64,000 nt of DNA from Novosphingobium sp. FKTRR1 (GCF_020404405.1 NZ_JAIZDA010000002.1:248001-312000); one strand, 5' to 3'; positions 4,898-17,224 are shown, counted from the first letter of the stretch. Program-made: numbers and translations. Notes: a model not told the origin generated them from the sequence alone.

Positions 4898-5599
4898 TCA
4901 GATTGACGGTGCGTGCGCATCCAGCCGCGCGACAAGGCGTTCGAGCGAGGGCACGACGATCTGCCGGCCCTTGCGCGCGATCAGGCCGCGCTCGGTCAAC
5001 AAGGTCATTTCGCGGGTCACGGTTTCGCGGTTGGTGCCGATTCGCGCGGCCAATTCGGCCTGCGTTGGCGGGCGGGCGATGATCGCACTGTCATCGTCTG
5101 CAGGCTGTTCATTGGCCAGCCGCAGCAGTTCGGCGATCAGACGAGACCCCACCGACATGTTCGACAGCTCGAACACCTTGCTCGTCAGATAGCGCACCTG
5201 CTGTGACAATTGCTGGGTGATCCAGCGCGCGATCTCAGGCGTCGTTTCGATCAGGCTCAGGAACGTTGCGCCGGGAATCAGCGCCAGACGGCTGGCTTCG
5301 GCCGCAACCACGTCGGCCGAGCGGACATGGCCATCGATCGCGGCGAGTTCGCCAAAGATCTCGTCCGGCCCGATCGAGCGCAACACCGTCTCACGCCCCT
5401 GCGGCGATATCAGCGATACCGACAGCCGTCCTTCGAGCACCAGAAACACGTCATTTGCGGGCAAACCGACCGAGAGGACGATCTGCCCCTTGCGCACCCG
5501 CAGGATGCGCGCGTTGTCGAGCAGGATGGCGCGCACGTCGGTTGATACCGGCGCGACGCTGGTTGCGACCACGGAACTTGACAAAGCATCGATCTGCAC
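4898..5599 (-). CDS. Crp/Fnr family transcriptional regulator with cAMP-type pocket
   Basis: About 233 residues. The N-terminal cyclic-nucleotide-binding beta-barrel reads VFLVLEGRLSV and then IFGELAAIDGHVRSADV. It keeps the Gly-Glu and Arg-Ser pair that contact ribose and cyclic phosphate in E. coli CRP (Glu72, Arg82, Ser83). A dimerisation helix follows, then a winged helix-turn-helix, PTQAELAARIGTNRETVTREM, with a recognition helix of the CRP/FNR type. There is no N-terminal cysteine cluster, so it is not an FNR iron-sulfur sensor. The open frame runs on to 6238, but that part is the shadow of the opposite-strand gene. Start is uncertain: GTG 5599 is used, and GTG 5608 or 5572 are possible. 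A CRP-like site lies just upstream, which suggests autoregulation. Confidence 0.85.
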   Translation of the reverse strand: MQIDALSSSVVATSVAPVSTDVRAILLDNARILRVRKGQIVLSVGLPANDVFLVLEGRLSVSLISPQGRETVLRSIGPDEIFGELAAIDGHVRSADVVAAEASRLALIPGATFLSLIETTPEIARWITQQLSQQVRYLTSKVFELSNMSVGSRLIAELLRLANEQPADDDSAIIARPPTQAELAARIGTNRETVTREMTLLTERGLIARKGRQIVVPSLERLVARLDAHAPSI

Positions 5600-5617: not shown

Positions 5618-5633
5618 CGTGATGAAAATCACA
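5618..5633. promoter_or_regulatory. CRP-type binding site between divergent genes
   Basis: Read on the minus strand, the sequence is TGTGA-TTTTCA-TCACG. This is a near-perfect dyad with a 6-base spacer, matching the E. coli CRP half-sites TGTGA-N6-TCACA in 9 of 10 positions. It lies just upstream of the predicted Crp-like start (5599) and upstream of the divergent hypothetical gene (5690), so it could control both. The match is direct; occupancy is inferred. Confidence 0.6.
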
Positions 5634-5661
5634 AGTTCAACGTGTCCTGGCCGACCGACAA

Positions 5662-5689: not shown

Positions 5690-6157
5690 ATGACGTTCAT
5701 GACGCCGAATCCGGTAGCCGCTTCGCACTACAAGATCTGTCGGACAGGCCCGGGGGGTCTTGCCGTGGAGGTCATTCCTTTGGGCAATGCTGTCCTGTTT
5801 CCCTCGCTCTCGATCATTGCGCCGGGCGAAAGCACGCCGGTACGGCGCGAGGACAATGCTGGGGTCGCCCGTTTCCTGCTTGCGGCTGATCAGGTCGAGC
5901 GCATGCTCGCTGCGCCGGGACTCGACCGATCGCCTTATCTCGGGCTGTTGTGCGACGCTTTCCTTTCGGTCAACGCCGATGATCGTGTGTGGGGCTATGC
6001 CTTGCGGATCAACCGCAGTGGTGTCGTTCTGCCGATCCACGATGCCGATGGTGTGGCGATCGAGACCGACGAAGCGGGTTTCTCGCAATGCGTTCTGCAA
6101 CACTTTCCCGCTCACAAGGGGGTGGCGCGTGGGCATGACATACTTTGCCTGGTCTGA
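5690..6157 (+). CDS. Hypothetical protein
   Basis: A 155-residue protein of no family I recognise. Composition and third-codon bias look like a real gene, and the overlapping minus-strand frame is low quality by comparison. It is largely soluble, with no signal peptide or membrane segment. Stretches such as EVIPLGNAVLFPSLSIIAPGES and the C-terminal HAPAHKGVARG-like end give no diagnostic motif. The start is uncertain: ATG 5690, ATG 5699 or GTG 5642. It diverges from the Crp-like gene across a CRP-type site, so it may belong to that regulon. It precedes the cyclase gene by 276 bases. I assign no function. Confidence 0.6.
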   Translation: MTFMTPNPVAASHYKICRTGPGGLAVEVIPLGNAVLFPSLSIIAPGESTPVRREDNAGVARFLLAADQVERMLAAPGLDRSPYLGLLCDAFLSVNADDRVWGYALRINRSGVVLPIHDADGVAIETDEAGFSQCVLQHFPAHKGVARGHDILCLV

Positions 6158-6433: not shown

Positions 6434-9400
6434 GTGAAACGCGGTTCGGATCAGGCACACCCGGCAATCGCGGGTGAACAGGTCCGGTTCGCGACAATCC
6501 TGTTTGCCGACATCGTCGGTTCGACCCGGCTACTCGGCGCGCTCGATCCCGAGGATGTACGCGATGTGCTCGACCGCGCGCTGCGTATCGTCAAGGATGC
6601 CATTCACGCGATGGGCGGTCTGGTCCTGCGGGTACAAGGCGATGGTGTGATGGCGGTGTTCGGCTTCCGGCCGGCGGTCGAGGACCATGCGCTGCGCGCG
6701 GCGCTGGCCGGTCGCCAGATCGTCGAAGAAATGCGCCATGGGCTGTTGGGCATCGTGCCATCGCCCAGCGTGCGCGTGGGCATCCATTCCGGATTGGTCC
6801 TGCTGCGCTGGCAGGAAAACGATTTCGGCACGATGCTGGACGTGGTCGGTCATGCGGCCAACGTGGCGGGGCAGGTCGAACGGCGCGCTGGCGAAAACGG
6901 CGTGGCGATCAGCGCCACCACGCTCGACCTGATCGGTGAAGCGTGTGAAGTGCATCCGATCGAGGCCATCTCGATCAGCGAGACTGCCGCCCCGCTGACG
7001 GTGTTCGATCTGAGGCAGATCGACATGGCGCGCGGCGATCAGGTCAATGTGAAGGGTTCGGCCCGCCATCCGCTGATCGGGCGCGAAACAGCGATGGCCG
7101 CGCTGAACGATCTGGTCGGCAATGTCGCGCGCGGTAACGGTCAGGCGCTGGCGATCGTCGGCGATGCCGGCATGGGCAAGAGCCGGCTGCTGGCCGAGAC
7201 CGCCGAGGTCGCCGAAGCGCAGGGCGCGCGGTTCGTCACCGTGCGCGGCAGCGAACTGACCGGGGACGTGCCGTTCGGCTGCCTTGCGCCGACGATGCGC
7301 CATTTGATCGAGCTGTTGGGGCGCGACAACTCCGACATCGCGCTCGAAGCCAGATTGACCCATGACGAGGCGGAATGCCTTGCCGGGCTGGCTGCGGGCA
7401 ACCAGACATGGCTGAGCAGCGCCTCGCCGGGTGAGCGTAGACGGATAGCCATTGCCACCGCCCGCACCGTGCTGCGCATGGTCGCGCGCGAGATGCCGCT
7501 GGTGGTGCTGGCCGACGATTTTCAGTACATTGATGGCGAAACGCAGGATCTGTTGCGCAGTCTGGCTGCGGCAGTGCGGCTTTCGGGGCTGGGGTTGGTT
7601 CTGGCGTCGCGCCCGGCACCGGACCTGTTCCTCGACGATGTCGTCGAGCAGACCATCGGCCTCGGCAACCTGTCGCCCGATCAGGCGCTTGTCCTGATCA
7701 CCCGGATCGCGGGGGAGCGGGCCTTGTTGCCCGAACTGGTCGAGGAAATCGCCAATCGGTCTGCCGGATTGCCGTTGGCCGTCACCGAGTTCACCACGGC
7801 GGCGATGCTGCGTTCGGTCGATGCTCGCCAGCGTGGGGACGAACCCCTGCCCTCGCGGCTGGAAAGCCTGTTCACCCTGCGGCTCGATGGGCTGGAAGGC
7901 GAGGCCGCGAGGCTAGCCTATCTGTGTGCGGCGCTGGGGCCGACGATCTCGAACGAGCGACTGCACCGGATCGGGTCGGCACTGCTGAACAATGTCGACG
8001 AAGCGATCGCCCGGCTGGTCGAGCACCGCATTCTGGTATTCGACCACCTCAGCCAGGCGCGCTTCACCCACCAGTTGTTGCAAGAGGCGGCCTATCGCAC
8101 TTTGTCGCGGGTTGAGCGTCGCGCCTTGCACGCCTCAATCTACGCCGAATTGGCCTCCGACAGCGCCGTTTACGGGCCATCCGATGCCACGCAGGCCGAG
8201 CTTGCAGCCCATGCCGAGCGCGCCGACCTGTTGTCCGAAGCGTTGCGCCACTTGTGGAAGGCCTGCGGGCAAGCGGTGGCACTGGCCGCTATCGAATCGA
8301 TTCCGCGGCTTTACGAAAGGGCTTGCACACTCGCCGACCGCCTTGGCGGTACCGAAGGTATCCGCCAGCGCGCGCGCTTTGCGCTGCTTGCCTTCGATGC
8401 CCTTCAGCAATTGTCGCAGGAACAGGTCACGCGCCCCGACATGGAAGCTGTGGCGCGAGGCGACTTCGATATGGGTTCCGATCAGCGCACGATCGCGCGG
8501 ATCAACATGGCACTGCTCGACTGGATCAACGGCGCGCCAAGGCTTGCGCGCGGCTGGCTCGATCAGGCGGAAGCCGATCTGGCTCAAGATTTCAGCATGC
8601 CGCGCCGGGTCTATGCCGATATCACCGGCACCTATATCGCGTATTCGCTGGCAGAGCCTGATGACGCGCTCGATCGGGTCCGCCGACTTACCGAGGGTTT
8701 GCGCGGTGGTCATGCTGCCGAAACGTTCGGGGCGGTGGTGGTGATCCCGCATATCCTCGCCCTGTCGTTCGGCGGGTGGTATGCCGCCGACCTCGGGCAG
8801 ACGGAACTGGCGCAGGCGTGGATCGACGAAGCGCTGGCGATCTCCTACGCCCATCAGCACAACTATTCGCGCCTGCTGGCAGATCTGGCGAACGGATTTC
8901 AGCATTACCGTTCGGGCAGGATCGATATCGCGCTGGACATCCTGACCAAGGCGCACGACCATTGCCTGCGTCACCGCTTCCTGGGGTTTGAGCCGGCAGC
9001 GGTCAGCTGGCTGGCCTTGTGCCTGATCGAAACGGGTGACATCGGTGAAGCGCAGCGCGTCCTCGATGCCTCGATTGCGCGCGGCAATTTCCTGCGGATC
9101 CGCACGTCGGCGACATATTACCACTATGAAGCGCGCACCCGGCTGGCCCTGACGCTGGGCCATCACGAGGTGGCGCTCGATCTGTCTGCGCAAGCGCTGG
9201 CACACTGTCGCGATTGCGGCGAAGCGATGCACCTGCATCACGCCCGCGTCCTGCGCGAGGAAGTGCTGCTAGCCACCGGGACGGCCCAGCCGCACGAGCG
9301 CGAGCGCGAACAGGCCGAGCTGATGCAGGCGCTGACAGAGCTCGGGCTGGTGCCGCTCCAACGCAAGCTGGCCGCATTGCAACTGGTGCCGGGAGCCTGA
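6434..9400 (+). CDS. Class III adenylate/guanylate cyclase with ATPase and TPR-like regions
   Basis: A 988-residue multidomain protein. Residues ~15-180 form a class III nucleotide cyclase catalytic domain. Metal-binding aspartates are D26 in FADIVGST and D70 in QGDGVMAVFG, and the transition-state-type motif is NVAGQVERRA. Residues ~205-500 form an AAA/STAND-type ATPase with Walker A GDAGMGKS near 243-250 and Walker B LVVLADDFQYID. The remainder is alpha-helical and resembles the TPR-like half of cyclase/LuxR-type signal proteins. GTG 6434 is chosen because GGAG lies 5 bases upstream and the cyclase domain follows at once; the open frame extends back to 6329 with unlikely sequence. The P450 gene starts 3 bases after the stop. 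It probably makes cAMP, with activity gated by the ATPase/TPR region. Confidence 0.85.
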   Translation: MKRGSDQAHPAIAGEQVRFATILFADIVGSTRLLGALDPEDVRDVLDRALRIVKDAIHAMGGLVLRVQGDGVMAVFGFRPAVEDHALRAALAGRQIVEEMRHGLLGIVPSPSVRVGIHSGLVLLRWQENDFGTMLDVVGHAANVAGQVERRAGENGVAISATTLDLIGEACEVHPIEAISISETAAPLTVFDLRQIDMARGDQVNVKGSARHPLIGRETAMAALNDLVGNVARGNGQALAIVGDAGMGKSRLLAETAEVAEAQGARFVTVRGSELTGDVPFGCLAPTMRHLIELLGRDNSDIALEARLTHDEAECLAGLAAGNQTWLSSASPGERRRIAIATARTVLRMVAREMPLVVLADDFQYIDGETQDLLRSLAAAVRLSGLGLVLASRPAPDLFLDDVVEQTIGLGNLSPDQALVLITRIAGERALLPELVEEIANRSAGLPLAVTEFTTAAMLRSVDARQRGDEPLPSRLESLFTLRLDGLEGEAARLAYLCAALGPTISNERLHRIGSALLNNVDEAIARLVEHRILVFDHLSQARFTHQLLQEAAYRTLSRVERRALHASIYAELASDSAVYGPSDATQAELAAHAERADLLSEALRHLWKACGQAVALAAIESIPRLYERACTLADRLGGTEGIRQRARFALLAFDALQQLSQEQVTRPDMEAVARGDFDMGSDQRTIARINMALLDWINGAPRLARGWLDQAEADLAQDFSMPRRVYADITGTYIAYSLAEPDDALDRVRRLTEGLRGGHAAETFGAVVVIPHILALSFGGWYAADLGQTELAQAWIDEALAISYAHQHNYSRLLADLANGFQHYRSGRIDIALDILTKAHDHCLRHRFLGFEPAAVSWLALCLIETGDIGEAQRVLDASIARGNFLRIRTSATYYHYEARTRLALTLGHHEVALDLSAQALAHCRDCGEAMHLHHARVLREEVLLATGTAQPHEREREQAELMQALTELGLVPLQRKLAALQLVPGA

Positions 9401-9403
9401 TCG

Positions 9404-10783
9404 ATGACAACTGCGGACGCCATCGCAAAAGCCGTTACCGCACTTGCGGCCGATGGCGCCCCGCCGTTGCAGCGCGCGCCCGAACTCGAAATGAAAAACG
9501 CACCGAGCGTGCGGGTGTTCGTGGCCGCACACCACGCCGCGATCAATGCGATCCTGTGCGACGAGGAGCGGTTCTCGCTACGCCACTACGATGAATTGCT
9601 GGCGCAAGTGGCTGGGCCTACCCGCTATCTGGTGGGCGAAAACGATGATGCCCGCAAACTGCGCCTGCGCCTGCTCCACGCGGCGCAAGGACACGTCGAT
9701 GCCGTGCGCAGACCGGCGGCCGTGCCGAACGATCCGCTGCCCCCCAACCTTGCGCTGGGTTATCGCGATTTCATCGCCACCATCGCGCGGGACGAGGCTT
9801 CGCGCATCCTCAAGGTGCTGGCGGTTCGCGGACAGACCGGCAGTCCGGTCAACTTCGCGCGCGAATACGCCTTCCTGCTGGCCTATCGCATGGCGCGGCG
9901 GGTGGTCGGCGTATCCGGCCCGGACAAGGCGCCGCTGCTGGTGTGGCTGATGATCGCCTACCGCAACTGGACCCAAGCTGGCCCCAAGGTCAGCCTGAAG
10001 GGCGAAGCAGGCACGGCCACCACGATGCTCGCCCTGCTCCACCCGCTGTTCGGGCACGTGTTCGGCACCGTGGTGAAAAGCACTGCCGTGATGCGCGCAA
10101 TCACCGCCAACACGGCGAGGCACGCGCTGGCCAGCTTCGACCTTGCACTCGACAAGCCGCATCTCGCCCCACCCCAAAGCCTGCTGGCCGGACTGCATGC
10201 GGTACGTGGGCAGTTTCCCGAAGTGTCGGATGAGCACTACCGGGTTCAGAGCCGCAGCGTGTTGTTCGAACTGGCGGGTGCGCTGGTGTTGATAGTGGGC
10301 AAGTCGTTGGGTGAGATCGCAGGGTTTGCCGTATCGCCGCAGGGCCATGCCGCCGGGATCGACTGGCCCGGGCTGGTCGAGCGGCTTGCCGTCGATGATC
10401 CCACCCGCACCAGCCATGACGCCGTGATCAACGAGATGCTGCGCCTTGGCAGCAGCAGCCAACTGGTGCGCACGGTGCGCAACGACTGCACGTGGCAGGG
10501 CGTTGCGCTCAACGCCGGCGATCGCGTGCTGTTGCATATCGACCAAGCCTCGCACGATCCGGCCGCGTTTGCCCAGCCCGAGCGCTTCGCGCCCGCGCCC
10601 GACCGCCCGTACATCACGTCGGGTCCGCTGCAGGGGCCACACGTCTGCTATGGCCGGGCGATCGCTTGGACGATCATGCGCGAAGCCATCGTGGCCACGC
10701 GCGGGCAGATCGACCCGGTAAAAGGCGCCAGCCTTTCCGCTTTTCTTGCCCTGCCCGACAATCTGGCTTTCACCGCCGCCTGA
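9404..10783 (+). CDS. Divergent cytochrome P450
   Basis: A 459-residue protein recognisable as a P450 only in its C-terminal half. E344-x-x-R347 in INEMLRLG is the K-helix ExxR motif. QPERFAP is the meander PERF-type motif. GPHVCYGRAIA carries the heme-thiolate cysteine C415 in a GxHxCxG context. The conserved phenylalanine three residues before that glycine is Pro. The I-helix oxygen-binding AGxxT motif is not obvious; ELAGALVLIVGKSLGE may be its counterpart. It is therefore either an unusual monooxygenase or a peroxide-using or isomerase-type P450. It lies 3 bases after the cyclase gene (GGGAG 8 bases before ATG) and 18 bases before the DyP gene, so all three are probably one operon. Substrate unknown. 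Confidence 0.8.
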   Translation: MTTADAIAKAVTALAADGAPPLQRAPELEMKNAPSVRVFVAAHHAAINAILCDEERFSLRHYDELLAQVAGPTRYLVGENDDARKLRLRLLHAAQGHVDAVRRPAAVPNDPLPPNLALGYRDFIATIARDEASRILKVLAVRGQTGSPVNFAREYAFLLAYRMARRVVGVSGPDKAPLLVWLMIAYRNWTQAGPKVSLKGEAGTATTMLALLHPLFGHVFGTVVKSTAVMRAITANTARHALASFDLALDKPHLAPPQSLLAGLHAVRGQFPEVSDEHYRVQSRSVLFELAGALVLIVGKSLGEIAGFAVSPQGHAAGIDWPGLVERLAVDDPTRTSHDAVINEMLRLGSSSQLVRTVRNDCTWQGVALNAGDRVLLHIDQASHDPAAFAQPERFAPAPDRPYITSGPLQGPHVCYGRAIAWTIMREAIVATRGQIDPVKGASLSAFLALPDNLAFTAA

Positions 10784-10801
10784 TCGAAAGACCCCCCGGC
10801 C

Positions 10802-13800
10802 ATGACTGTTGCGCAGGATTTCGTCACGATCGTCATCCCGTTCACCGACGATACCGCGTGGTCGCCGCTACGGATGGCCGACGTCGAGCGGGTGCTGTAT
10901 CGCCTCGGCAATCCGGCCGAAGTCGACATTGCAAAGCGGCTCGACGGTACCGGGATCATCCACTTCCTCAGCATCAATGTGATTGCGCCCGAACGCGAGG
11001 GCACGGCGCCGCACCTGCTGATCGAGGCCACGGTCGATGGTGCCGCACAAGATGCCGTACCGGCGATTGCCGAGGCGCTGGGCGATGCTTTGCTCCCCGC
11101 GTTGCGCATCGTCACCGGCGTGACCGATGCCGATGCGGTGCCCGACCTGCTGCGGCACCACGCCTCCAGCATCACGTCGAACCCGCTGCGTCTGCCGCGT
11201 CAAGTCATCGGACTGCCTTTTTGCGGCACCCCGGGGGTGAGCGTAGCGGCGATTCGCGACAACCAGCGCGTCGTCGATGCAGCGCGCGACCTGATCGCCC
11301 GCGAGTGCCTGCGCCAGCCTTCGGCCGATGCACAAGCCCTGCTCGGTCATGTCGCGGCGAACCTGCCCAGTCCCGAACAGGCGATCGTCTGCCAACCGCA
11401 GCCCGAACTGGCCTTCGTCGACCGACCGGACGCGCCATGGCGCGATCCCGCGCTGACATCCTGGGGACTTGCCACCTTCTGGCGGATCGCCTGCTATCAC
11501 CGGCTGCTGCTTTTGGCGCTGCTGGGGGTGCCTTACGCGCTGCTCGTGGCGCTGCTGCGGTCGGGCGGTGCCGGGCTCGGAACTGCGTTTGCCGCCGCAT
11601 TGGTGCCCGCACTGATCGCGGCAGGAGCGGTCGTCGGGCTGTTCGTCTGGCTGCTGCGCCGCGACGAGCTGGCCAATACCCCGATCGATACCACGCCCGA
11701 TCCGCACGCCATCGCCGCCATGCTCGCGCGCGAGAATGAGCCCGGCGTGGTCCAGAACCACATGATCAGCGTCACCCGCTTGCGCCCCGCAGCGATCCGC
11801 CGCCTGTCACTTTCCGTTGCGTTCAAGGCAGTGGCGACGCTGATCGGCACGCAGTTGATGCGTCCGGGGTTTCTCAGTTCGATCGGCACGATCCACGCTG
11901 CGCGTTGGGTGGTGCTGCCGGGAACCCGCCAATTGGTGTTCCTCAGCAATTTCGATGGTAGCTGGGAGAGCTATCTCGAGGATTTCATCAAGAAGGCATC
12001 GGAAGGCGTCAGCGCGGTATGGAGCAACGCGATCGGCTTTCCCGCCACGCGGCTGCTGTTCATGGGCGGCGCTGCCGATGGCGATCGGATGAAGCGATTT
12101 GCCCGCAATTCGATGCAACCGACCGCGTTCTGGTACTCGGCCTATCCCGGCCTGACCTGCGGCGCGATCCGCAAGCACGCGATGATCGTGTCCGGGTTGC
12201 GCCATGCCGCGCGGATGGCTCCGGTGCCTGCCGATGCCCAAGCCTGGCTCGACCTCATCGGCGCCGTCCCCCGCCCTGCTGAAGCGCTGCAGTATGCCGA
12301 GATTCAGGCGATTGCCTTTGGCGGACTGCGGCACCATCCGCGCAGCCGCATGATCGCGCTCGACTTCGGCGCGCCCCAAGCGACCGATGTCGGCAACGGC
12401 CATCCCTATGCGCATGTCCAACGCTGGCTGGCCGATCTTCATGCGCACGACCTGATCCTGTTCGGCGACCGGCCCGTTCCGTCGCTTGTCGCCAACATCG
12501 CGTTTTCGGCAGCGGGACTTGCACGGCTCGGCCTCGATGCTGAGGTTGACGGAGCCGCACAAGGCTTCCCCGGCGTGTTTGCCAGTGGCATGGTCTCGGA
12601 CGGACGCCGTCGCGCGCTCGGCGATCCCGAGGCGCTGCAATGGTCCGATGCCAGTGTTCACGCGGTCCTGCTGCTGTATGCGCGCCCGCCCGCCGACAGC
12701 AGCGATGCCGGGGCAGATCTTGCTGCCAAGACCGCCTTCGATGCCGAAGTCGCGCGCGCCGAACATTTCGGCCTTGCGGTGCGGGCCAGCCTCGACACCG
12801 GGCTGACGACGTTTGACGCCGCCAAATTCGCCAAGGACTGGCGCAACAGCGCCCTGCCGGACACTGCCGCCGCGCCGAACAAGGACGATGGCGCCGACGA
12901 TCAGGACAATGCCGACGGGCTGACGGTCGAACCATTCGGTTTCGTCGATGGCGTATCGCAACCGCAAGTGCGCGGTTTTCCGGGGCGCAACGGCGCTGGC
13001 GACCCGATTCATGCGGTGGAGCCCGGTGAATTCATCCTCGGCTATACCGACAATCTGGGTTTCTATCCGCCCTCGCCGCTGGTGACGCGCTCGCTTGCCA
13101 GCATCGGCATGGCGCCCGAGGTGCTGCTCGATGCACCGGCCGCGCACCAGCCGACAAGCTTCTGCGATTTCACCGGAGAGGTCGAACCGGCACGCGATTT
13201 CGGACGCAACGGCAGCTATCTGGTGATCCGCCAACTGGATCAGGATGTTGCTGCCTTCAATCAACAACTTACCGACAAAGCGGACGCATTGGCCCGGCAG
13301 CATGCCGTCGGCAATCCCCATCCGGGCAACCTGCACCGCACCCGCGAATGGATCGCGGCCAAGCTGGTTGGTCGCTGGCGCGATGGCTCACCGCTGATCG
13401 AACATCCCATCCAGCCGGTGCTCGATGGGGGACAGACGGCTCTGGCAAGCAATGGCTTCGCGCTTGGCAGCAGTGACCCGCAAGGCCAGCGCTGCCCGTT
13501 TGGCGCGCACATCCGCCGCGCCTTCCCGCGTGACAGCCTGTCGCCGGGCGATCCGCTGGGGCTTGCCGTGACCAACCGGCACCGCATCCTGCGACGCGGA
13601 CGGCCCTATCGCGACGCCGAGGGTAACCCTGCCGGAACGCTGTTCATGTGCCTGAACGCAGACATCGAGCGGCAGTTCGAGTTCGTCCAGCAGACCTGGA
13701 TCGGATCGCCGACCTTCCATGGACTTGAGGGTGAGCGCGACCCGTTCACGATGCATGTCGGAACAACGCCGATTGCGCCGGGCGGCGACCGGCTGACCAT

Positions 13801-13972
13801 CCCCGGACCTGCCGGGGGTTGCGTGATCGATGGGCTGGCCCGCCATGTAACCGTACGCGGGGGCGGATACTTCTTCCTGCCCGGCCGCCGCGCACTGCGG
13901 TTCCTTGGCGGCCAGCCGTGGGCCGAGGCGCAGCGCAACACACCATCCGCTGCGCCAGCATCAGCGGCGTGA
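10802..13972 (+). CDS. Large DyP-type heme peroxidase fusion with membrane segments
   Basis: A 1056-residue protein. The C-terminal ~400 residues are a dye-decolourising peroxidase domain. GFVDG at 713-717 supplies the catalytic Asp, GAHIRR at about 902-906 the proximal heme His (H903), and RILRRGRPY near 930 the distal Arg, so the active site looks intact. Residues ~230-288 contain two strongly hydrophobic helices. The segment SNFDGSWESYLEDFI near residue 380 opens a separate region of unknown role. The N-terminal ~230 residues are unassigned. Ordinary DyPs are 300-450 residues, so this is a fusion more than twice the usual length. No Tat or Sec signal is seen at the N-terminus. It is third in the cyclase-P450 operon and probably membrane-anchored. 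Confidence 0.85.
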   Translation: MTVAQDFVTIVIPFTDDTAWSPLRMADVERVLYRLGNPAEVDIAKRLDGTGIIHFLSINVIAPEREGTAPHLLIEATVDGAAQDAVPAIAEALGDALLPALRIVTGVTDADAVPDLLRHHASSITSNPLRLPRQVIGLPFCGTPGVSVAAIRDNQRVVDAARDLIARECLRQPSADAQALLGHVAANLPSPEQAIVCQPQPELAFVDRPDAPWRDPALTSWGLATFWRIACYHRLLLLALLGVPYALLVALLRSGGAGLGTAFAAALVPALIAAGAVVGLFVWLLRRDELANTPIDTTPDPHAIAAMLARENEPGVVQNHMISVTRLRPAAIRRLSLSVAFKAVATLIGTQLMRPGFLSSIGTIHAARWVVLPGTRQLVFLSNFDGSWESYLEDFIKKASEGVSAVWSNAIGFPATRLLFMGGAADGDRMKRFARNSMQPTAFWYSAYPGLTCGAIRKHAMIVSGLRHAARMAPVPADAQAWLDLIGAVPRPAEALQYAEIQAIAFGGLRHHPRSRMIALDFGAPQATDVGNGHPYAHVQRWLADLHAHDLILFGDRPVPSLVANIAFSAAGLARLGLDAEVDGAAQGFPGVFASGMVSDGRRRALGDPEALQWSDASVHAVLLLYARPPADSSDAGADLAAKTAFDAEVARAEHFGLAVRASLDTGLTTFDAAKFAKDWRNSALPDTAAAPNKDDGADDQDNADGLTVEPFGFVDGVSQPQVRGFPGRNGAGDPIHAVEPGEFILGYTDNLGFYPPSPLVTRSLASIGMAPEVLLDAPAAHQPTSFCDFTGEVEPARDFGRNGSYLVIRQLDQDVAAFNQQLTDKADALARQHAVGNPHPGNLHRTREWIAAKLVGRWRDGSPLIEHPIQPVLDGGQTALASNGFALGSSDPQGQRCPFGAHIRRAFPRDSLSPGDPLGLAVTNRHRILRRGRPYRDAEGNPAGTLFMCLNADIERQFEFVQQTWIGSPTFHGLEGERDPFTMHVGTTPIAPGGDRLTIPGPAGGCVIDGLARHVTVRGGGYFFLPGRRALRFLGGQPWAEAQRNTPSAAPASAA

Positions 13973-13996
13973 AGCGCCGCCGACCGCCAGAGCGAT

Positions 13997-14281
13997 TTAC
14001 AGATACGTTTCGTAGGTGCCTTCAGGGGGCCCGGCCAGTGCGCCCATGACCCCGGCCAGCGCTTCGGGTGGCAGGCTGCCCAACACCGCCTGATGCGCTT
14101 CGACCGAATCCCATTTTTCGATGAACAGGAAGCGGTTGGCGTCGGCATCGTCACGCAGCAGGTCGATGCCGCTGCAACCCGGCTTGGTCAGCACGAGTTC
14201 GCGCAATGCGGCCAGCGCGCCAGCCAGCACGTCGCCTTGCCCTTCTGCAGCGGTCATCCTGTAAACGCGGCCCACGGTCAT
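13997..14281 (-). CDS. Antibiotic biosynthesis monooxygenase (ABM) domain protein
   Basis: A 94-residue single-domain protein of the dimeric alpha/beta-barrel ABM family (YgiN/quinol monooxygenase type). The typical order is an N-terminal strand, a helix with ALRELVLTKPGCSGIDLL, a strand with RFLFIEKWDSVEAHQAVL, and a short C-terminal helix. Such proteins oxidise quinols or aromatic compounds without a cofactor, or act as small dehydratases. GGGAG lies 9 bases before ATG 14281. It is convergent with the DyP gene, 24 bases away, so it is outside that operon. Its proximity to two heme oxidases may still reflect shared small-molecule metabolism. Confidence 0.8.
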   Translation of the reverse strand: MTVGRVYRMTAAEGQGDVLAGALAALRELVLTKPGCSGIDLLRDDADANRFLFIEKWDSVEAHQAVLGSLPPEALAGVMGALAGPPEGTYETYL

Positions 14282-14375: not shown

Positions 14376-15947
14376 TCAGCGAATCAGGCGGGCGCTTTGA
14401 ATTGTCAGCGCAAAGAGCGCCGACAATGCGTTCGAAATGTTCTCGTCAGGGCTGACGGTATAGACCAGCGGCGTGCCGTCGGACGAGGTCGACGCGCACG
14501 ATTGCAACGCGGGCAACACATTGGACAGGTAGGGCGCAACGTTTGCTAGCGACCATGAATCGCCGACCAGAACGTCAGGCAGATACTCTGTGTACAGGAT
14601 CGCGATCTTGATCCCGCGGTTCTTGATGGTGGTGCATGCGGCCAGATCCGGCGTGCCCAGTTCGCGATTGCGCCGCGAACCGCCGCTCAATTCATCCACC
14701 ACCCCATCGGTGATCAGCAGCATGACTTCTTGCGGCGTGCCGCCCGGAGCCCCTGATCCGGGGGCGGCCATCACGGAATTCATCGCGGTCAGCGTGTTGC
14801 TGAATTCGGTCGCCATGTCATGAATGTTGTTTGAGCTGGTCGGCAGGCCGTTTGCATACCACCAGTCCTGCGTCCCATCGAGATCGGGCACGTTGGCACT
14901 GCTCAGGCTGTCGATGTTGGTCATGGAGCCGTACTGGGTCACCGGACCGTTTGCGGACGGATGGGTCCAGTCAAAGGCAAAAAACTGCATCTGATACGCC
15001 ACCGCGTTGCGGGAGGCTTGATTTTGCGCATATGGAATCAGGTTTTGCGCGGCGAGCGTTTCTTCCCCCACCCGCAGCGTGATGGTCGATGCCGAGGGAT
15101 AGAGCTTCGTGTAATTGTGCGTCAGCCAGTACCCGTCGGCATAATAGCCGGAAAAGCTCTGATTCTTGTTGCTCAAATCCTTGTAGGTCAGCGTCGAACC
15201 CGAGATCTGCGCGTTGGTGCCGATCTTGGTGCCGGTCTTGTCATAGAGCACCTTGGTCGAGGCTTGCAGCGCATAATACAGGCCGTAACCTGCATTGCCC
15301 GAGGTGTAATAGCCCGGCGATAGAAAGATGTCGCGCCCGGAGGAATCGCGCACGTTTATGCCGTCGTTGCGCGGATATTGGGCATGGCAGGCAAAAGCGC
15401 AGCCTGTCACCTTCTGGATCGCGGCAATTCCGGCCGACGTGGCTGGCAGCAACATCGACGGTGACCGGTCCATCACCAGATAGAAATTGATGTTCGGGGC
15501 TTGCGTTGCATAGGCGACGGCGGAACCCGAAAAACCCAGCGAGGCCACGCCAAGGATGCCTCCGAACAGGTTGCGCGATCGCGCGCGGAACCGGACGGTC
15601 ACGGTCCGACCGAGATTGAGCGCACCCTGATCGTCCACCACCACCGAAACGTCGCTGAGCGGATCATAGCGGACGTTGCGCAACAAACCGGCTTGCCCGT
15701 TGAAAACTTGCCTGGCCGCGGCTGCGGCGGCCGCGTTCGCCTGCTGGATGTAGATCGCATCGGTGGCGGCAAGCGCAGCAGCATCGGCCGCTGCAAGCAT
15801 TTGCGAGCGCGCCATCTCGGCGCGGCCATAATCAATGGCAAAGCCGATCGCGAAGAACGTCGGGATCAGGGCGATCGCGGTCAACACCAGCACGTTGCCC
15901 TTCGCGTCGTGCAACAGGCCCCGGACGGTCCGAAACCAGCCCGTCAT
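14376..15947 (-). CDS. TadG-like protein with von Willebrand A-type region
   Basis: A 523-residue protein. It starts with a short cytoplasmic tail and a membrane helix containing GNVLVLTAIALIPTFFAIGFAIDYGRA, the TadE/TadG N-terminal signature. This is followed by an alanine-rich coiled stretch. From about residue 155, YLVMDRSPSM keeps a MIDAS-like DxSxS motif of a vWA domain, and VMLLITDGVVDELSGG is a later vWA strand. TadG proteins are accessory envelope proteins of Flp/Tad pilus systems. It overlaps the preceding TadE-like gene by 4 bases, indicating translational coupling. No other tad genes (ATPase, secretin, prepilin peptidase) are in the window. Confidence 0.85.
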   Translation of the reverse strand: MTGWFRTVRGLLHDAKGNVLVLTAIALIPTFFAIGFAIDYGRAEMARSQMLAAADAAALAATDAIYIQQANAAAAAAARQVFNGQAGLLRNVRYDPLSDVSVVVDDQGALNLGRTVTVRFRARSRNLFGGILGVASLGFSGSAVAYATQAPNINFYLVMDRSPSMLLPATSAGIAAIQKVTGCAFACHAQYPRNDGINVRDSSGRDIFLSPGYYTSGNAGYGLYYALQASTKVLYDKTGTKIGTNAQISGSTLTYKDLSNKNQSFSGYYADGYWLTHNYTKLYPSASTITLRVGEETLAAQNLIPYAQNQASRNAVAYQMQFFAFDWTHPSANGPVTQYGSMTNIDSLSSANVPDLDGTQDWWYANGLPTSSNNIHDMATEFSNTLTAMNSVMAAPGSGAPGGTPQEVMLLITDGVVDELSGGSRRNRELGTPDLAACTTIKNRGIKIAILYTEYLPDVLVGDSWSLANVAPYLSNVLPALQSCASTSSDGTPLVYTVSPDENISNALSALFALTIQSARLIR

Positions 15948-16537
15948 GACAGGGGCACCTGATCGCTCAGGCGCGGCAGCATGTAGACTTTCGCGTAGAG
16001 CGTCGGAGCAGGCATGATGCTCGCCCCGAACAGCGGGGTGTAATTGTAGCGCGTTTCGCCAAGGATGAAGTAGGCACCCGCGCGCGGTGGGCTGGCGGCA
16101 GGGTCTGGAATCATCATCGCCGGGGCCAACCCTTTGGGCAAGGCCAGCACGGTGCCTTTGGCCAGGTCGTTGCCATTGCTGGCCTTGCTCCAGATCACTT
16201 TGGCATGGCTGGCGTCGATCACCTGTATCTCGCTGACGCGCGAGGCCGAACTTGCCGTCGCGAATGGCGCAAGGACATAAGCGCCGCTGGTCAGGATCTC
16301 GGCCAGATCGGTCGCGGTGACGGCGGGATAGCGCGTGGTCATGTCGGTGATCGCGCGGGCGGTGCGGGCGACCTTGCGATTGCAGGCCACCGCATCGTTC
16401 AGCACATATGTTCCAGCGTACATCGTCACCAGCAACATCGCGCAGAACGCCAACTCGATCATGGCGGTGCCCGACCGATCAACCAGCAATCGGGCCAGCA
16501 ATCGGGCAACCTGGCGTTGCAAAGCCCTTCGCGTCAT
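15944..16537 (-). CDS. TadE-like pseudopilin family protein
   Basis: A 197-residue protein with one N-terminal membrane helix in the TadE/TadG style: RSGTAMIELAFCAMLLVTMYAG, with the conserved Gly-x-Ala-x-x-Glu pattern around GTAMIE. The rest is predicted extracytoplasmic. TadE proteins are minor pseudopilins of the Tad pilus machinery. It overlaps both neighbours by 4 bases (16534-16537 and 15944-15947), so the three genes form one translationally coupled operon. Confidence 0.82.
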   Translation of the reverse strand: MTRRALQRQVARLLARLLVDRSGTAMIELAFCAMLLVTMYAGTYVLNDAVACNRKVARTARAITDMTTRYPAVTATDLAEILTSGAYVLAPFATASSASRVSEIQVIDASHAKVIWSKASNGNDLAKGTVLALPKGLAPAMMIPDPAASPPRAGAYFILGETRYNYTPLFGASIMPAPTLYAKVYMLPRLSDQVPLS

Positions 16538-17079
16538 GAATAGCCCTCGGTCTTGGCCACCGATGTCGCGACAAGCAGATGGTGCGATCCGGGCTGGTTG
16601 GCGATATCGAACCCGAACACCGAAATGACCGGCCAGTTGTACAACAAGCGCACGACCACGATCGAGCCTTGCGCACCCGGATCGTAGTTGAGCGTCGAGA
16701 TGACATTGTTGTTCTTGTCATAGACTAGCGTGGGCGCGGCCAGCGTGACCGCGCCGAAGTTGCTGACATGGGTGACATCGACGTACAGGTTGCCGCAGCC
16801 GAGCATCGTCGGCAACTGGGTGCAGGCATAGGCCTTGAACTGCTGCTGCGGGGTGGTCGTGAGATTGCCGTTGGCGTCCCTGATTCCGGTGAAACTGGTC
16901 TGCGCCTGACCGGTCAGGATATAGCGCCCGCAAGATTCGGCCGCCGTTTCAAGCCCCTGCTGCGCCAGATAGAGCAGAGCAATCTCGAGCGTCGCAATCA
17001 GCAGGCCCAGCACGACCGGCGCGGCCAGCGCAAATTCGATCGCGCTGGCGCCACAGGTTTCGCGCGCGAGTCGGCTCAT
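16534..17079 (-). CDS. TadE family pseudopilin
   Basis: A 181-residue protein when started at ATG 17079. The N-terminus reads CGASAIEFALAAPVVLGLLI, the TadE signature of a short positively charged tail, an A-x-x-E-F motif and a hydrophobic helix. The remainder is extracytoplasmic and has two cysteines in AYACTQLPTMLGCGN that could form a disulfide. The open frame extends to 17181, but that extension has no ribosome-binding site and unlikely sequence. It is first in the three-gene tad operon and its stop overlaps the next start. Confidence 0.85.
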   Translation of the reverse strand: MSRLARETCGASAIEFALAAPVVLGLLIATLEIALLYLAQQGLETAAESCGRYILTGQAQTSFTGIRDANGNLTTTPQQQFKAYACTQLPTMLGCGNLYVDVTHVSNFGAVTLAAPTLVYDKNNNVISTLNYDPGAQGSIVVVRLLYNWPVISVFGFDIANQPGSHHLLVATSVAKTEGYS

Positions 17080-17224
17080 CGTGCACAGCCTTTTTCGACT
17101 GCGCAGCCCTGTCACCCCGACTGGCAGACCACACCGCATAGCCGGGCCAGATTGCCCGAATAGGGCTAAGATCAGGCTCAATCTGGCTAGGGAACCATCC
17201 TGATTGGCAGGACGGCTGCCGGGT

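Follow-up and report, generated by a model that had tools for sequence, protein, structure and literature searches.

A membrane-tethered P450-DyP oxidase unit of alphaproteobacteria with a putative cyclic-nucleotide transcription switch of its own

Proteins that join a cytochrome P450 to a second heme enzyme have been described in fungi and oomycetes. The fungal Ppo proteins and linoleate diol synthases (LDS) are dioxygenase-CYP6001 fusions in which the P450 half converts the hydroperoxide of its partner, and the oomycete CYP5619 fusions carry the P450 at the N terminus and a peroxidase at the C terminus (PMC13049297, PMC5919972). On the regulatory side, the class III cyclases CyaC and CyaD1-D2-K of Sinorhizobium meliloti act on target genes via the CRP-like regulator Clr (PMC10463352, PMC4222275). 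Here we describe a locus of Novosphingobium sp. FKTRR1 that encodes a cyclase-like protein, a divergent P450, and a membrane-anchored DyP protein, with a CRP-family regulator upstream. It lies on contig C26 of a 4.98-Mb genome, within a stretch of 64,000 nucleotides (GCF_020404405.1 NZ_JAIZDA010000002.1:248001-312000; the whole stretch is referred to as the window), and the nearest relatives of the window are Novosphingobium. With a probability of about 0.6, we propose that the genes of this locus form a single conserved functional unit, namely, a two-heme oxidase that is tethered to the membrane and governed by a cyclic-nucleotide transcription switch of its own; ligand sensing, a CRP response, and sequential heme chemistry would be coupled in it. 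A search of the open-access literature yielded no account of P450-DyP fusions or of the gene set found here.

A preliminary description of this DNA had connected two heme oxidases with a cyclic-nucleotide protein, and the grouping of cyclase, P450, and DyP indeed recurs outside one strain, in many alphaproteobacterial genera. A search with the DyP N-terminal domain, which is sufficiently specific for use as bait, found 253 sites that encode a relative in GTDB species genomes; the best 80 of these 253 were examined, with flanks of up to 10 kb and in all six frames. The bait domain adjoined DyP in all 80 loci, and a P450 lay within 6 kb, adjacent or fused to DyP, in 74. Most were fused, P450 and DyP being joined in one polypeptide at 45 loci. 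The genera concerned include Mesorhizobium, Nitratireductor, Rhizobium, Chelativorans, Aquamicrobium, and Bosea, with further hosts in Rhodopseudomonas, Novosphingobium, Erythrobacter, the Hyphomonadaceae, and others, and the membrane-tethered P450/DyP unit is carried by many soil and water bacteria. When the DyP protein was searched against 298 genomes of the order, the full trio appeared in one more genome of the same genus and in one of another genus, and five genomes encoded a single protein of ~1,430 to 1,530 amino acids (aa) with an N-terminal P450 and a C-terminal DyP. A DyP-type match was present in 32 of these 298 genomes; at the level of the class, 12 of 385 genomes carried the bait domain. 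The unit is accessory and patchy. Because relatives sit on plasmids, it may spread. In the NCBI annotation of a Pararhizobium plasmid, a gene for adenylate/guanylate cyclase and one for a 1423-aa "cytochrome P450" are accompanied by a convergent gene for a Crp/Fnr regulator. On plasmids of Rhizobium, Sulfitobacter, and Novosphingobium, DyP protein relatives are mostly annotated as hypothetical proteins. The unit was also seen, together with a second canonical P450, on a contig labeled Candidatus Kuenenia (L113), where gene transfer or a binning error may be at work and which provides no evidence of spread across phyla.

Both heme enzymes keep their heme ligands, as had been noted from the sequence alone. 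Cys415 and the ExxR motif (E344/R347) are invariant in the aligned unit P450s (PF00067), and the DyP part has the Asp of the GxxDG motif, the proximal His, and the distal Arg (D716, H903, and R931), all invariant in the 93 sequences compared. This part bears a C-terminal Dyp_perox_C match (25.1; cutoff, 20), scored 81.9 against TIGR01413, below the curated cutoff of 100.5, which marks it as a divergent DyP member, and had an ancestral D-type DyP as its best PDB match. The N-terminal half had no Pfam or PDB sequence match, and PHROGs gave no match for the DyP protein. An AlphaFold model of residues 1 to 500 (predicted local distance difference test [pLDDT], 91.7) nevertheless identified a tandem SchA/ABM-like barrel in a fold search, with hits to WhiE-ORFI (Z, 12.2 over 224 residues; root mean square deviation, 4.4) and AbxO (Z, 10.5). 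The membrane anchor claimed earlier proved to be a hairpin of two transmembrane (TM) helices, at about residues 234 to 291, within this domain. Since the hairpin is flanked on its outer sides by positive charges, as judged by inspection, P450 and DyP would both be cytoplasmic, at the inner membrane. Stand-alone SchA/ABM-like relatives of 190 to 440 aa adjoin DyP genes in L053 to L058; they suggest that DyP partner proteins form a larger family, one that lacks a Pfam entry.

The label "divergent" fits the P450, which scored 43.5 bits against Pfam p450 (cutoff, 22.8); its AlphaFold model (pLDDT, 93.8) has the P450 fold, with a Z of 31.7 to P450Blt. The acid-alcohol pair of the I helix, typical of monooxygenases, is replaced by Leu-Ile in a register that depends on the alignment. 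Across these loci, the acid is gone in 77 of 89 P450s, with Pro-Thr or Pro-Gln in most of the acid-less proteins and Leu-Ile in Novosphingobium; all 8 other P450s checked in the window genome keep it. A likeness to CYP152 peroxygenases, with Pro at the Thr position, was considered and dropped as unproven: aligned with the unit's canonical relatives, the fused-clade P450s keep the Thr and have Pro at the acid position. P450s normally need reductases, and loss of the I-helix acid favors the use of peroxide over ordinary activation of O2. Because most unit P450s have lost this residue, the unit P450 would more likely draw on a peroxide or hydroperoxide than on O2 with a reductase.

The putative switch is marked by the joint occurrence of cyclase and regulator. 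A class III cyclase-domain gene was present in 47 of the 80 loci and a CRP gene likewise in 47, with both in 45 and neither in 31 (Fisher 1.8e-17, a value that treats related loci as independent). The CRP gene is divergent and upstream in Novosphingobium, convergent and downstream (median, 29 bp) in Rhizobiales, and in line and downstream in Erythrobacter (L124); because its position and orientation differ among clades, the cyclase-CRP link has outlasted gene rearrangement. The cyclase is of a cyclase-AAA16-TPR type in Novosphingobium, Erythrobacter, Hyphomonadaceae, and Hellea and of a cyclase-TolB/TPR type in Rhizobiales. The window genome encodes a single class III cyclase and a single DyP, along with three proteins that bind cyclic nucleotide monophosphates (cNMP); since the sole class III cyclase, the sole DyP, and one of the three cNMP-binding proteins sit here, their co-occurrence at the locus is far beyond chance.

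CRP-type sites follow the same pattern. The palindrome GTGA-N6-TCAC occurred 29 times in 8.6 kb (the 191-bp stretch at the oxidase start in the 45 fusion loci) versus 22 times in 834 kb elsewhere, and each of 11 rearranged half-site arrangements had 0 copies in the same comparison. Among 30 Rhizobiales-type loci that have both cyclase and CRP, 28 carry a perfect copy just upstream of the oxidase gene, compared with none of the 31 loci that lack both (0 of 8 loci of the SARP type described below and 0 of 23 others). Within Novosphingobium, the putative site lies in the divergent promoter between the CRP gene and a small gene X, where a match of at least 9/10 was seen in 13 of 13 loci versus 34 of 3,000 random 150-mers. 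The regulator itself matches PF00027 (E, 1.4e-20) and PF13545 (E, 3.8e-15) and, with a cNMP-binding domain, a Crp helix-turn-helix, and a TGTGA-N6-TCACA-like site, belongs to the CRP/FNR family. The residues of its cNMP pocket (FGELAAIDGHVRSA) are intact, and its recognition helix, NRETVTRE, is similar to the one in Escherichia coli CRP, of which a fragment served for comparison only. Gene X had no Pfam match and gave same-frame tblastx matches in 12 of 12 related Novosphingobium loci. The CRP regulator and gene X, neither of which figured in the preliminary description, belong to the unit, and the regulator and its predicted sites offer a plausible mechanism for the link between cyclase and oxidase.

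Loci of Rhodopseudomonas, Reyranella, Sphingomonas, and other sphingomonads have an upstream gene without a cyclase domain. The N terminus of its product is instead a winged-helix domain with profile matches to EmbR (E, 8e-6) and AfsR (E, 4e-5), and the Novosphingobium aromaticivorans copy is labeled "SARP family" by NCBI. These proteins share with the cyclase proteins a homologous TolB/TPR part (27 to 39% identity; E down to 1e-115), with the strongest matches in the hybrid-looking proteins of L074 and L083. Because this part is shared with the cyclase-TPR proteins of sister loci, the output domain appears to have been exchanged. Among the 80 loci, the 8 of SARP type had neither a CRP gene nor a palindrome. 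The proteins at L074:4883-7579 and L083:3984-6611, each of ~880 aa, have a SARP/BTAD-like N terminus followed by an alignment to cyclase-TolB-TPR that begins at cyclase residue 69; they look like intermediates of the exchange. In the simplest reading, cyclase and CRP may do via a second messenger what the SARP-like domain would do directly, namely, control the oxidase genes.

Comparison across loci thus supports a sensor part joined to either of two predicted outputs, a class III cyclase-like domain with a dedicated CRP or a SARP-like DNA-binding domain, and a putative CRP-type palindrome, which in Rhizobiales lies at the oxidase promoter and in Novosphingobium at the divergent promoter between CRP and gene X. 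We envisage that the AAA/TPR or TolB/TPR part would sense a ligand, that this would alter the cyclic nucleotide level, and that CRP would respond to this nucleotide by switching the P450-DyP genes. A single substrate may then be processed by the two hemes one after the other, on the cytoplasmic side of the inner membrane, by an oxidase that is probably peroxide linked.

Several points weigh against this proposal. Independent contrasts between cyclase and CRP number only 4 to 5; all run in the same direction but are not significant, the comparison being underpowered. A deep branch has P450 and DyP without cyclase, CRP, or palindrome, and the P450-DyP pairing is more widespread than the cyclase link. 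The acid-alcohol pair is retained in 12 of 89 P450s, 11 of them from the deep branch and 1 being the second, unlinked P450 in L113. Most pressing are the active-site residues of the cyclase. Class III cyclases have metal-binding, transition-state, and base-selecting positions, and an active enzyme is expected to keep the transition-state Asn and Arg. The window protein has the metal Asp pair (D26/D70) and Asn143, but Gln147 replaces the transition-state Arg and Arg66 the base-selecting Lys. In a residue table of AAA16-type cyclases (18 rows, two genomes entered twice), His stands for the transition-state Asn in 17 rows, and Lys is changed to Arg throughout. Rhizobiales cyclases keep Asn and Arg and lack both the base-selecting Lys and Asp. 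Given Gln147 and Arg66, activity of the window cyclase cannot be assumed; the protein may have little or no activity and may not synthesize cNMP. The absence of the base-selecting residues means that the product in Rhizobiales may be something other than cyclic AMP (cAMP).

These substitutions lead to the alternative that survives best, although we consider it unlikely: the cyclase of the Novosphingobium clade would be a pseudo-enzyme that binds nucleotide or regulates its own ATPase, and CRP would answer another ligand or cNMP made elsewhere. The changes at the transition-state and base-selecting positions favor such a protein. However, the genome encodes no other class III cyclase and no class I cyclase was found in it, both metal Asp residues are kept throughout the compared cyclases, and the CRP pocket is intact. 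As for identity, the protein scored 49.1 against PF00211 (Guanylate_cyc; cutoff, 21.9) and above the cutoff for AAA_16, so that the cyclase and ATPase parts of the announced cyclase-ATPase-TPR architecture hold, but its TPR matches are weak and below the cutoff. Assignment as a TOMM kinase/cyclase (TIGR03903) was rejected (153.5; curated cutoff, 705.75). A distant copy (L054, G128) has CRP, DyP, P450, and a cyclase-AAA-like protein in rearranged order, and its cyclase has Ser at the position of the transition-state Asn.

Somewhat less probable still is that P450 and DyP share a promoter but are otherwise two independent enzymes of detoxification or stress, each with its own substrate and the P450 with ordinary O2-dependent chemistry. 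DyPs are broad peroxidases, and some unit P450s retain the acid-alcohol pair, yet separate roles fit poorly with a single fused polypeptide in 45 loci and with an acid lost from most unit P450s and kept in the other P450s checked in the genome. A third possibility, which we regard as improbable, is an oxylipin-like signal: the DyP/ABM half would form a hydroperoxide that the P450 isomerizes, as a bacterial counterpart of the fungal Ppo/linoleate diol synthases. A two-heme fusion at the membrane, with a P450 devoid of the normal O2-activation residues, is what such a route might look like, and fungal P450 halves convert hydroperoxides of their fusion partners (PMC13049297); against it, DyP and the cyclooxygenase-like dioxygenase are not homologs, and a lipid substrate would be conjecture. 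A chance neighborhood or hitchhiking genes, to which the patchy distribution might point, is contradicted by recurrence across orders with varied arrangements, fused forms, and promoter palindromes and can be set aside as extremely improbable.

The features of the locus are collected in Table 1. The open reading frames (ORFs) bear out the gene order of cyclase, P450, and DyP, with gaps of 3 bp and 18 bp, that had been given for the trio. The neighboring ABM-fold monooxygenase is a real gene, as claimed, but not part of the unit: tblastn against 100 related loci, performed with the gene as a candidate fourth member, returned no homolog. TadE/TadG-like pilus-assembly genes adjoin the unit at window positions 14376 to 17181 on the minus strand. 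At deep-branch loci (L076, L084, L096, L105, L106, L112, L132, and L133), the P450 is separate and has a normal Asp-Thr pair, and the P450 ORF of L133 has an additional N-terminal part of ~260 aa.

Table 1. Features of the P450-DyP locus (window coordinates)
Feature	Position	Strand	Remarks
CRP/FNR-family transcription factor	4898-5572	-	cNMP-binding domain, Crp helix-turn-helix; start taken as GTG at 5572 (uncertain)
CRP-type palindrome CGTGA-TGAAAA-TCACA	5618-5633	.	Putative site in divergent CRP/gene X promoter
Gene X	5690-6157	+	155 aa (171 aa from GTG at 5642); between CRP and cyclase genes
Cyclase-like/AAA/TPR protein	6434-9400	+	988-aa ORF
Divergent cytochrome P450	9404-10783	+	459-aa ORF
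Membrane DyP protein	10802-13972	+	1056-aa ORF; SchA/ABM-like tandem domain split by TM hairpin, then class D-like DyP (AlphaFold, fold search, DyP matches)
TM hairpin	11501-11674	+	Helices 234-254 and 259-291, inside N-terminal domain
DyP domain	12287-13927	+	D716, H903, and R931 invariant (93/93)
ABM-fold monooxygenase	13997-14281	-	PF03992; convergent; outside conserved unit

Several points make the proposed unit of interest. A natural fusion of P450 with DyP, conserved in both rhizobia and sphingomonads, points to a two-heme route that is self-contained and to a new tool enzyme. That the same sensor module can carry either the cyclase, with CRP as its partner, or a DNA-binding domain suggests that the cyclase acts as a stand-in for a transcription factor. 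To our knowledge, many alphaproteobacterial cyclases have no known target, and the unit would be a clean test bed for local cyclic-nucleotide signaling in these bacteria. The unit is assembled from known parts and has a fair chance of representing an undescribed oxidase class. In its full form, we put this claim at even odds: P450, SchA/ABM-like membrane domain, and DyP, in one chain or one operon, would define an undescribed class of bacterial oxidase with a plug-in regulator, either cyclase plus CRP or SARP-like, and its product may be an oxidized signal or lipid, in convergence with the fungal fusions.

Each part of the unit has a described relative from which it departs. With Ppo/LDS and CYP5619 proteins, its nearest enzymatic parallel, it shares a heme peroxidase-type domain and a P450 in one protein, and the domain order of CYP5619 matches that of the bacterial fusion. 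It differs from these fusions in being bacterial and in having DyP instead of a cyclooxygenase-like dioxygenase, an intervening SchA/ABM-like membrane domain, and the cyclase/CRP link. Membership in the Ppo/LDS family was rejected, as the cyclooxygenase-like heme dioxygenase domain is missing and the peroxidase half is a DyP; by analogy, however, the unit could work alike. Its DyP shares the GxxDG Asp, proximal His, and distal Arg with class D DyPs but adds an N-terminal membrane domain and a P450 partner and falls below the TIGR01413 cutoff. The N-terminal domain has the fold of the SchA/CurD-like ABM proteins WhiE-ORFI and AbxO, with ~12% identity and an inserted TM hairpin. The alternative upstream protein resembles SARP/AfsR/EmbR regulators in its DNA-binding domain and TPR repeats, whereas its TolB/TPR part is of the cyclase-TPR type of sister loci. 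Finally, the nearest regulatory parallel is the cAMP-Clr system of S. meliloti, which likewise pairs a class III cyclase with a CRP-family regulator; in the unit described here, by contrast, the cyclase-domain gene, the regulator, and the target oxidase genes are clustered, and a SARP-like alternative exists.

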